Of a DNA stretch of 64,000 bases, positions 29,893 through 34,089 are shown piece by piece. How positions within the stretch are numbered: position 1 is the first letter of the stretch; each line of letters begins with the position of its first letter. The notes beneath the pieces were generated by a model that was not told where the DNA came from, did no database searches, and saw only the letters and a program-made list of their open reading frames with translations. The stretch comes from a bacterium. Lineage in GTDB: Bacteria > Joyebacterota > Joyebacteria > Joyebacterales > Joyebacteraceae. The position numbers and the translations under genes are program-made. Where the stretch lies: assembly GCA_025774935.1 (NCBI GenBank), contig JALGZK010000001.1, positions 414,591-478,590 of the forward strand. The letters are read 5' to 3'.

Positions 29893-32800
29893 ATGCCGAG
29901 CGCGGCGGCGGTTCACTCTGGGGTCCCGGCGGGGGACATCGACCGGTCCAGGAGCGTGCGATTCGTCGCGCTCGCGGCCGGTCTTCTCTTTGCGTTCGCG
30001 ACGCTGTGTCCGGGGCAGCTCGCGCGCGGTCCGGCGGCAGGCATCGACGGGGACGGTGCACTCGGGAACATCAGGATCCCGTTCGTGGCGAACGCCGGAC
30101 AGACGGACGAGCGCGTCGCGTTCACGGCGAGAGTCTCCGGCGGAACGGCGTTCGTCACGCGCGAGGGCACGATCGTCTACGCGCTTCGCGCGGACGGGCC
30201 ATCGGGCCCCATCAGGACCGTCGCCGTCGAGGAGTCGATCCTCGGGCTCAGGGAGTCGCCCGAGGGACTCGGCACGGCCGTGACCCGCATCAGCTCCATG
30301 AAGGGGAGCGACAGCCGGGCGTGGTGGTGCGACATCCCCGCGTTCGACGCGGTCGACCTCGGCGAGCTCGAGAGCGGCACGCTGGTCGAGCTCCGCACAC
30401 GAGCGGGAAGCGTCGAGAAGGTCTTCACCGTCCCACCGGGCACCGACCCGGGGGGCATCCGTGTCCGGTTCGAGGGCGCAAGCGCCCTCGAGGTCGGGGA
30501 GGCCGGAGAGTTGGTCGTCACGACACCCCTCGGGGACATCGTCTTCTCGCCGCCGGTCGCCTTCCAGAGACGCGCGGGGAAGGTCGAACCGGTCGACGTG
30601 GCATACGAGATCCTCGGCACGTCGTACGGGTTCACCCTCGGCCGATACGACGGTGCGCTTCCGCTCGTCATCGATCCGCTCCTAGCGTCGACGTTCCTCG
30701 GCGGCTCAGGGGAGGACGGCGGGTACTGCGGGAACGCCCTCGCGCTCGGCACGGACGGGAGCGTCTACGTCGCGGGCTACACCGCCTCGGACGATTTCCC
30801 GTCGTCCACGGGCATCCTCTATCAGGGTGGCGACTCGGATGTCTTCGTCGCGAGGTTCGACCGCGCGCTTACGACGCTCCTCGCCGCCACCTACGTCGGC
30901 GGAGCGAACCTCGAGCAAGCGAGCGCGATCGCCGTCGGGAACGACGGCGTGTACGTCACGGGGAGCACCATGTCGCCCCTCTTCCCGACGACCGGAGGCG
31001 CGTACGACGGGTCGTACGGCGGCAGCACGCCGGGCCCGTACGACGCTCCGGGCGACGCGTTCGTGACGAAGCTCACGTCTGACCTCTCCACGATCGTCTC
31101 TTCGACCTTCTACGGCGGCTCCGCGTGCGACTACGCGCGGGGCGTCTTCGTCGACGGGGGCGACGTGTACCTCACCGGATTCACCGCGTCCGGCGGACTC
31201 GCCACCTCCGGCGCCTTCGACGAGACCCACAACCCCGGCGGACAATGGGGAGGCATCGACTCGTATGTCGCCAGGTTCAGCGGAGACCTCTCGACCCTCC
31301 TCGCAGCGACGTACCTCGGCGGGAGCATGATGGACTACGTCGAGGATGCGACGATGACCTCGGCCGGGTTCTACGTGACGGGGTGGACGGCGTCCGACAA
31401 CTACCCGTGGACCCCGACCGCCTACGACACGACGTTCGCCGGCGGCGTCTACGACGCCTTCGTGACGGGGCTCGACCGCTCGCTCGGCACGCTCCTCGGC
31501 TCGACCTATCTGGGCGGCACGGAGTGGGACTTCGGGTACGGCATGACCTCCGACGCCGTCGGGAACGTCTACGTGACGGGCCACTTCGCGGAGAGCGGAG
31601 CCGAGACCACGTTCCCGACGACGCCCGGCGCCTTCCAGACCGAGTACAACGGCACCGGCGGACCGAACGTCGGCGACGACGCGTTCGTCTCGAAGTTCGA
31701 TCCCGCGCTCGAGACGCTCGTGGCATCGACCATCCTCGGCGGGACCGGGTGGGAGTACGGGAACGGCCTCGACTGGCACCCGAGCGGCCACGTCTATGCG
31801 ACGGGCACGACGTCCTCGGAGGACTTCCCGTGCCACGCTGGCGCCCATCAGGAGGAGTACGGCGGAAACGAGACGACGGTCCACTTCGGAGACGGGTTCG
31901 TGACGAAGCTCTCGGATGATCTCACGGCCGTCCCGGCGGCGACCTACCTGGGCGGAAGCTCCGACGACTTCCCCGAGTCGATCGCGGCCGATCCGGACGG
32001 CAACGTCTACGTCTCGGGCACGACCTGGTCCGAGGAGTTCGTGGTGACGTACGGCGCGTATGACGAGGACCACGCTGGGGGAGGCGAGAACGACGTGTTC
32101 GTGTCGGTGCTGAGCCCCGACCTCGGAACGCTCTCCTTCACAGCTGAACCGTCCACGGGCGTCGCGCCGTTCGACGTCACGCTCACGGGCGTATCGTCGG
32201 CGGTGCCGCCACCGACCGTGTGGCAGTGGGACTTCGGAGCTGACGGATCGATCGACGCCACGGGACAGGTCGTCGTGTGGACCTGCGCCGTGCCCGGACT
32301 CCAGACCGTGCGGCTCGTGACACCCGACGGCGACTTCGACCCGTCGGTCACGGTCGCGGACTGCATCCAGGCGTTCGACACGAGCAGCGCGCTCAGGTTC
32401 GACGGTGACGAGACGCAGGTCGTCTGCGCGGCGGCGCCGGATCTGAACCTCACCTCCGAGCTCACGCTCGAGGCCTGGATCAGACCCGATTCCTGGGGAG
32501 GGTTCCCCATCGGAACGTGGGGACTCGGCCAGGTCGTAGGCAAGGAGAACTTCAAGCTCTTCCTCGTCGGAGTCCACCCGATGAACGGGGAGAACACGCT
32601 CTGTCTCAGGCTCGAGCACGAGGACGGGACGTCCAGCGTCACCTGCGCGCCCGACTCCGCGCTCGTCCTCGGCGAGTGGCAGCACGTCGCCGCCGCCTAC
32701 GACGCCGCCACGAGCACGGCACGCCTCTGGATCAACGGCGCCGAGCAGGCCGTCACGCACCCGACGGCGCCCTCGGGGCCCGTCGCCGACCACGCGGCGG

Positions 32801-33364
32801 TCGATCTCAGGATCGGGAACTCGGAGGTGCTCTCCTGGTCGTTCGAGGGAGACATCGACGAGGTGCGCGTGTGGGGGAGGGCGCTCGAGACCTCCGAGAT
32901 CGAGGCCGGACTCGACTCGCCGCTCTCGGGTGACGAGCCGGGGCTCACGGCCTACTGGCGGATGGACGAGGGGAACGGCGGCGTGATCCTGGACCGCACG
33001 AACAGCGGCCACGCGGGCACGCTCGAGGGACCCTCGTGGGTCCAGGGCGTCGTTCTCATCGAGACGTCGGTGCCGGAGGACCCGGGCGCCGCGGAGGTCG
33101 CCGGCCTCAGTCGGCTCGGCAGCTACCCGAACCCCTTCAACCCGCGGACCACGATCGCGTTCGAGCTGCCCAGCGCAGGGACGGCCGTGATCGCCGTCTA
33201 CGATGCCTCCGGCCGGCGAATCCGCACCCTCATCGATGGAAGACTGGATGCCGGGCGCCACACGGTGCTCTGGGACGGTACCGACGACCGCGGCCGGAAT
33301 CTACTTCTGCAGGCTCGAGTCGACCGACTCGACAAACACCCTGAAACTCGCGCTTGTCAAGTAA
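29893..33364 (+). pseudogene. Secreted SBBP beta-propeller/PKD/LamG protein, frameshifted in its C-terminal domain
   Basis: The ATG follows GGAGGTGA by four bases. After a signal segment comes the N-terminal domain usual in SBBP proteins (FVANAGQTDERVAFTAR ... PLVIDPLLASTFLGGSGED). About eight SBBP repeats follow (xYVAGYTASDDFP ... DVFVARFD, STYLGGTEWDFGYG), then a PKD domain (about 32140-32360), a LamG/concanavalin-like domain (about 32385-33050) and a FlgD-like domain (SYPNPFNPRTTIAFELP, YDASGRRI, LWDGTDDRGR). At about 33298 the frame is lost: the expected five residues before IYFCRLE are missing, equivalent to a 14-base deletion. The correct tail (IYFCRLESTDST ... LALVK) continues in another frame to TAA at 33362-33364. 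Without correction the frame runs to 33777 through the histone gene. Confidence 0.8.
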
Positions 33365-33447
33365 TCCGGGTCGGGCGACGGCGCCGGGACGTCGATTCCC
33401 GGACCCGGATGGGGTCCTCAAGCCCTTCAAGAAGGCAACTTCTTCTC

Positions 33448-33475
33448 TTGACATCCCTGCGCCGGGTTGTATGCT
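33448..33475 (+). promoter_or_regulatory. Strong sigma70 promoter of the histone gene
   Basis: Consensus TTGACA at 33448-33453, a 16-base spacer and TATGCT at 33470-33475. The leader to the ATG at 33584 is about 100 bases. Confidence 0.65.
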
Positions 33476-33583
33476 CCGGTCTAAATGCGGGAGCAGGGGG
33501 CCAGGGTGGGCTCCGCGCCGCGTTGAGAGGAAAGCAACAGGGGCCCCAGAGCCGGTCGAGAACCGGCAGCCAGGAGGGAAGTG

Positions 33584-33757
33584 ATGGCTGGCTACGTCGT
33601 GAAGTCGAAGGTCGGAGAACTCTCGAAGAAGCTCGGAATGCGCCTCAGCGGCAAGGCCATCGACGAGCTCGACGCTCTGGTCGAGGGCGCGCTCAAGACG
33701 GCAGCGAAGCGTGCCGAGGCCAACAAGCGGAAGACGATCGCGGCCCAGGACATCTAG
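33584..33757 (+). CDS. Bacterial histone-fold protein
   Basis: 57 residues, ATG to TAG, with AGGAGGG about six bases upstream and a near-consensus promoter. The sequence reads as one histone fold: a short basic first helix (VVKSKVGELSKKLGM), a loop and long second helix (RLSGKAIDELDALVEGALK, then TAAKRAEANK), and RKTIAAQDI at the end. The RKT(I/V)xxxD signature is the loop-and-clamp motif of archaeal histones, whose equivalent in HMfB is RKTIKAEDI; here R49, T51 and D56. The third helix is absent or very short, as in the Bdellovibrio Bd0055 type. The protein should dimerise and coat or bend DNA, giving a nucleoid role. It lies in a different frame inside the read-through of the frameshifted upstream gene. 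Confidence 0.88.
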   Translation: MAGYVVKSKVGELSKKLGMRLSGKAIDELDALVEGALKTAAKRAEANKRKTIAAQDI

Positions 33758-33836
33758 AAGTCGAGAGAAGCGAGTGACGCAGGCGGTATCGGGGCCCTGA
33801 GCCCCCGGACGCCGGTGCGTCTGTTACGTTCAGAGA

Positions 33837-33871
33837 CCGGCTCGCGCGGCACCAGCCGCGCCGGCCGGTTT
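33837..33871 (+). terminator. Hairpin terminator after the histone gene
   Basis: GCGCGGC (33844-33850) pairs with GCCGCGC (33855-33861) around the loop ACCA, extended by CCGGC/GCCGG arms with a small internal loop (33837-33868) and followed by TTT. Confidence 0.5.
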
Positions 33872-34089
33872 CTGCGTCTCTGGTTCCTGTAACACGGTCT
33901 CGCGGGCCTGAAGGAGCCATGAACCGGCTTCCGGCTGCAACGGGTGTCTGCGCGCCCTCGGGGTCCGGTTTATGCACCGATGTCTGAGTGATCGCTGAGC
34001 GCCGGCTCATGGCCCGCGGCGTCCGCGGTCGTCATGCAGACGCCCCATCGGGAACCCCGCCCGGCGGCGCCCCACAGGAGGTGGATCAC
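33872..34089 (+). other. Intergenic region with no recognised gene
   Basis: The 332-base gap between the histone gene and the next gene (33758-34089) holds the terminator above. A 22-codon ORF at 33919-33987, with GGAG upstream, has no recognisable features. A perfect GGAGGTG ribosome site lies at 34078-34084. Confidence 0.35.

Follow-up and report, generated by a model that had tools for sequence, protein, structure and literature searches.

We describe a 57-residue protein from a genome very probably belonging to Joyebacterota, a little-known lineage of marine sediment, that is almost certainly a histone-fold protein and that we assign, with good but lesser confidence, to the face-to-face (FtF) α3-truncated histones, which would make it a tetramer wrapping ~60 bp of DNA. 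Bacteria were long thought to be without histones, and to our knowledge the few bacterial histones solved with DNA are HBb (Bd0055) and HLp. The gene lies in the window, by which we mean the whole stretch of 64,000 nucleotides that was analysed, and it is accompanied by its own promoter, a conserved leader and a 3′ hairpin:

33448 to 33475, plus strand: sigma-70-type promoter, TTGACA-16 nt-TATGCT, from a motif scan; 28 of 28 nt are the same in the sister-species contig L001.
33482 to 33583, plus strand: 5′ leader with AGGAGG and a 13-codon mini-ORF from 33485 (MREQGARVGSAPR, then a stop), from comparison with L001.
33584 to 33757, plus strand: histone gene of 57 codons, probably an FtF-type α3 histone, from homology, predicted fold and conservation.
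33815 to 33895, plus strand: hairpin region 3′ of the gene, a possible terminator lacking a T-run, from its fold z-score and 91% identity with L001.

The reading frame opens at ATG 33584 and closes at TAG 33755-33757, encoding MAGYVVKSKVGELSKKLGMRLSGKAIDELDALVEGALKTAAKRAEANKRKTIAAQDI with a pI of 9.8, and a Shine-Dalgarno sequence, AGGAGG, stands at 33572-33577, 6 nt 5′ of the ATG. An earlier note made from the sequence had proposed here a stand-alone bacterial histone with an RD clamp, ending in RKTIAAQDI, preceded by a ribosome site and overlapped by a read-through frame. Coordinates, sequence and ribosome site proved to be as claimed, and profile searches, predicted fold, conservation and flanking DNA all agree with the histone assignment.

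With the single sequence as query, phmmer against the PDB retrieved HTkC (E = 3.5e-5), HLp (2.3e-4) and Bd0055 (5e-3). A profile of eight members, the window protein and seven relatives, improved these values to 1.9e-13 for HTkC, 5.4e-9 for HLp and 1.2e-8 for Bd0055/HBb, and every PDB match of the profile better than 1e-2 was a histone or a histone-fold protein. Histone models in Pfam and NCBIfam match the 57-residue protein only below their cut-offs, and a search with the Pfam model PF00808 gave no match anywhere in the source genome, the protein having diverged too far from it.

The AlphaFold2 monomer, computed from the eight-sequence alignment (mean pLDDT 83.7, pTM 0.57), places α1 at residues 10-16, α2 at 23-46 and α3 at 54-56, with the RKT loop at 49-51 and an RD clamp between R49 and D56; the long second helix anticipated in the earlier note is thus found in the model, and the third helix, which that note described as missing, is truncated to a three-residue stub. 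Foldseek ranked HTkC best, together with HLp and HBb (E 3e-3 to 9e-3, probability 1.00), and VIA-align Z-scores of 5.6 for HBb, 5.2 for HTkC and 4.9 for HLp amount to a tie, with nucleosomal histones at 4.3 or below. Since the chain is helical and only 57 residues long these fold scores are modest, and the fold therefore backs the sequence result rather than extending it.

α3-truncated histones are defined by an α3 of 3-4 residues, a shortened α2 and an RxTxxxxD motif (Schwab et al. 2024, PMC11390915). The window histone has the short α3 and an α2 spanning 23-46, its closest structures are α3 histones, and it carries the motif as R49-K-T51-IAAQ-D56, invariant among the homologues. The full-length α3 typical of nucleosomal archaeal HMf histones is absent, as the protein stops at residue 57. 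Unlike the pseudodimeric DUF1931 family PF09123, in which two histone folds are fused over 138 positions and which had no match in 20 Joyebacterota genomes, the window histone is a single fold.

The α3 histones are divided into FtF tetramers and bacterial dimers, among others, with FtF members marked by HMM positions R48, N52 and R54 and bacterial dimers lacking R48 and N52 (PMC11390915). The corresponding residues of Haloferax D4GZE0, R41/N45/R47, are reported to take part in the RD clamp and in the contacts between FtF dimers (PMC11390915), and those of HLp, R49, N53 and R55, serve a tetramer that wraps ~60 bp (PMC12701072). The window histone has R43, N47 and R49 at these three positions; along with T51 and D56 they are invariant in all eight homologues, so that the absence of R48 and N52 that characterizes bacterial dimers is not seen in any of them. 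Lysines in α1, a further FtF trait, are present as K7 and K9 in every homologue that covers that part.

The earlier note had likened the protein to the Bd0055 type, which would imply a histone fold that acts on DNA as a dimer, by bending or coating it. The profile clearly shows HBb to be homologous, and the RD clamp is common to both. The HBb structure matches the monomer model no worse than the others do, and comparing folds does not tell the subtypes apart. By sequence, however, both FtF histones, HTkC and HLp, outscore HBb, which carries Ser and Asp where R43 and N47 stand in all homologues here, and in a small tree HBb joins other sequences apart from the window histone, although this placement is weakly supported, as are the deep nodes generally in a tree built on ~57 columns. 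HTkC itself carries Glu where N47 stands, and several sequences grouping with HBb retain the dyad R and N; the dyad motif may thus be ancestral to α3 histones and by itself is no proof of tetramers. We consider the dimer unlikely and Bd0055 not the best subtype, and because of the dyad residues, the sequence ranking and the likeness to haloarchaeal histones we file the protein as an FtF α3 histone, with a tetramer wrapping ~60 bp as the probable form.

Several solved or annotated histones serve as points of reference for this FtF assignment. HLp of Leptospira perolatii (PDB 9QT0-9QT2) is a bacterial α3 histone of like size with the same R-x3-N-x-R and RD clamp, aligning without gaps over 52 residues at about 38% identity (20/52); it differs in having a short N-terminal extension where the window histone is tail-less, and its genome is without HU (PMC12701072), whereas the window genome has two HU/IHF genes. 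HTkC of Thermococcus kodakarensis (FtF, PDB 9F2C), the top match by both sequence and Foldseek, is likewise tail-less and resembles the window histone at the end of α2 (KRAQAEGRKT in HTkC, KRAEANKRKT here), but it is archaeal, carries Glu in place of N47 and bears a two-residue insertion ahead of loop 1. The nearest matches in a plasmid collection were haloarchaeal histones annotated as 'DUF1931 domain-containing' (Natronomonas, Halorarius, Haladaptatus), which are 42-44% identical over their full length and keep all of the R-N-R-T-D residues, yet are archaeal, have more acidic helices and are two residues shorter before loop 1. HBb/Bd0055 of Bdellovibrio bacteriovorus (PDB 8FVX, 8CMP), published as a dimer, shares the α3-truncated fold and the SK and RKT...D motifs; besides its Ser/Asp at two dyad positions and lower score, its N-terminal half is longer by two residues.

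Joyebacterota belong to the FCB superphylum and comprise a single family with nine genus-level lineages (PMC13271369; PMC9727166), among which JALGVN01 is a named genus (PMC13271369). Contig L001 of the sister species, the only match in a single scan of genome contigs, belongs to JALGVN, and it is from this sister contig and the genus matches that we place the host in the phylum. A short N run at L001 2084-2088 coincides with the histone stop codon and masks the last residues there. Across a phylum sample of 20 genomes from one family and eight genera, the histone occurs in 8 genomes and 3 genera, always as one copy: 2/3 genomes of genus g1, to which the window belongs, 5/6 of g4 and 1/1 of g7, where the copy is cut by a contig end. 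It was not found in G001, a 97% complete genome of g1, through loss or an assembly gap; a search there for a flanking gene did not identify the site (best match, L031, 43% identical). As the histone is missing from G001 and from five of the eight genera, the gene is dispensable in the phylum.

Where present, the gene is under purifying selection. Comparison of g1 with g4 yields a dN of about 0.25-0.32, a dS of about 0.7-1.1 and a dN/dS of about 0.3-0.4, and within g4 the values are 0.01-0.05, 0.15-0.70 and about 0.03-0.23. Against L001 the histone coding sequence is 95% identical and the downstream ORF 74%, and the histone dS is 0.09 compared with 0.27-0.72 for three neighbouring genes; such a low dS would fit a highly expressed gene or an mRNA constraint, neither being proven. 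The neighbours in g4 are different (by eye, those in L013 resemble a metallophosphoesterase and a DegV protein), and another promoter-like site, TTGCGC-17-TATTCT, precedes 5/5 copies there, its second half reading TATTCT in four of them and TATCCT in the fifth. Given the different neighbours and the promoter-like sites of its own in g1 and g4, the gene stands alone in both settings.

The patchy presence of the gene, together with retention of HU/IHF in the phylum, would also suit a histone fold that no longer packages the chromosome and acts, for example, as a regulator or as part of another complex, and certain histone folds elsewhere are known not to bind DNA (discussed in PMC10627809). Against this, the homologues retain the residues expected to contact DNA, in the SK motif and the RKT loop, the protein has a pI of 9.8, and the stand-alone gene with its own promoter has no fixed partner gene; we regard a non-packaging role as very improbable. 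That the ORF is no gene at all and resembles histones by chance could be argued from its shortness and from the longer same-strand ORF, 29893-33777, that covers it. Relative to L001, however, the upstream gene is without 14 nt near 33295, which shifts its frame and thereby creates the overlap; its expected C-terminal end (...GIYFCRLESTDSTNTLKLALVK, then a stop) lies in another frame, with the stop at 33364, so the longer ORF overlaps the histone solely through a frameshift. The frameshift origin of the overlap, the E-value of 1.9e-13 to solved histones and conservation in three genera under purifying selection refute the chance reading. The 14-nt gap may be either genuine or a fault of the assembly, and gene callers favouring the long frame could miss the histone. 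The upstream gene itself, 29893-33364, appears by eye to encode a long SBBP-repeat/LamG-like secreted protein, its C-terminal end frameshifted relative to L001. A phage histone is not favoured, because a search of viral contigs yielded no relatives.

For the FtF histone that we favour, the best expectation, by analogy with HLp, would be a ring-shaped homotetramer. Two monomers would pair through their long α2 helices into a histone-fold dimer, and two such dimers may then join face to face, meeting at the α2 ends, loop 2 and the stub α3, with R43, N47 and R49 serving this dimer-dimer closure. The basic residues K7 and K9 of α1, together with positions in both loops, 1 and 2 (e.g. S22, K50, T51), are predicted to contact the DNA backbone, such that ~60 bp of DNA could wind around the ring without sequence specificity. 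Tail-less, homo-oligomeric and made from a single gene with its own promoter, the protein would act as a nucleoid protein alongside HU/IHF, genes of which occur in 19/20 Joyebacterota genomes; in HU the window genome differs from Leptospira interrogans as well as L. perolatii (PMC12701072). The promoter and the low synonymous divergence suggest that it may be abundant.

The promoter, TTGACA at 33448-33453 and TATGCT at 33470-33475, matches 10/12 consensus positions and is the sole such site in 1.2 kb, where shuffling expects 0.0 +/- 0.2; the promoter proposed in the earlier note is therefore present. From the position of the -10 element the leader presumably starts at 33482. It is 97% identical to L001, and the block from promoter to start codon 98%, compared with 62% in the intergenic stretch immediately before it; when the promoter and leader DNA was used as a query, the sister species was the only other place where it occurred, a weak 24-nt match in G013 being disregarded. 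The mini-ORF is in the histone's own frame and is kept in L001, with TAA instead of TGA. This conserved leader could be a control element. Rfam models revealed no known RNA, either in the leader or across the window, and we do not claim a riboswitch, because the full leader is no more stably folded than its shuffled versions (z about 0). A hairpin with the stem AGCCAG/CUGGCU is predicted, and its loop holds the Shine-Dalgarno sequence and the start codon. Downstream of the gene, the proposed terminator was upheld in part: a strong, conserved hairpin is present at ~33830-33870 (z = -3.4 for the 141-nt fold, 33750-33890), but a terminator scan found no T-run and did not score the hairpin region as a terminator. 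That this hairpin ends transcription is plausible but unproven.

According to the main texts of published surveys, the bacteria with FtF histones belong chiefly to Spirochaetota, Planctomycetota, Bdellovibrionota and Myxococcota; in those main texts we found no mention of histones from Joyebacterota (or Eisenbacteria), though we do not claim a first report. A Joyebacterota member thus extends bacterial histones beyond the phyla named there, and its coexistence with HU/IHF turns the sharing of the nucleoid into a testable question. A fuller picture, in which the histone of the HU/IHF-keeping Joyebacterota is a tetramer of archaeal type without tails, wraps ~60 bp, was gained early from archaea or inherited, and is self-controlled through its conserved mRNA leader, is one that we put forward tentatively and consider less likely than not. 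Outside the phylum, 29 of about 366 genomes gave matches to the Joyebacterota histone profile, a hint that uncultured bacteria carry α3 histones more often than the reported 1-2%, although that figure is not directly comparable with our sample, which is spread widely over families. Some of these genomes have two copies, and the R-N-R dyad is present in most of the sequences that were aligned.
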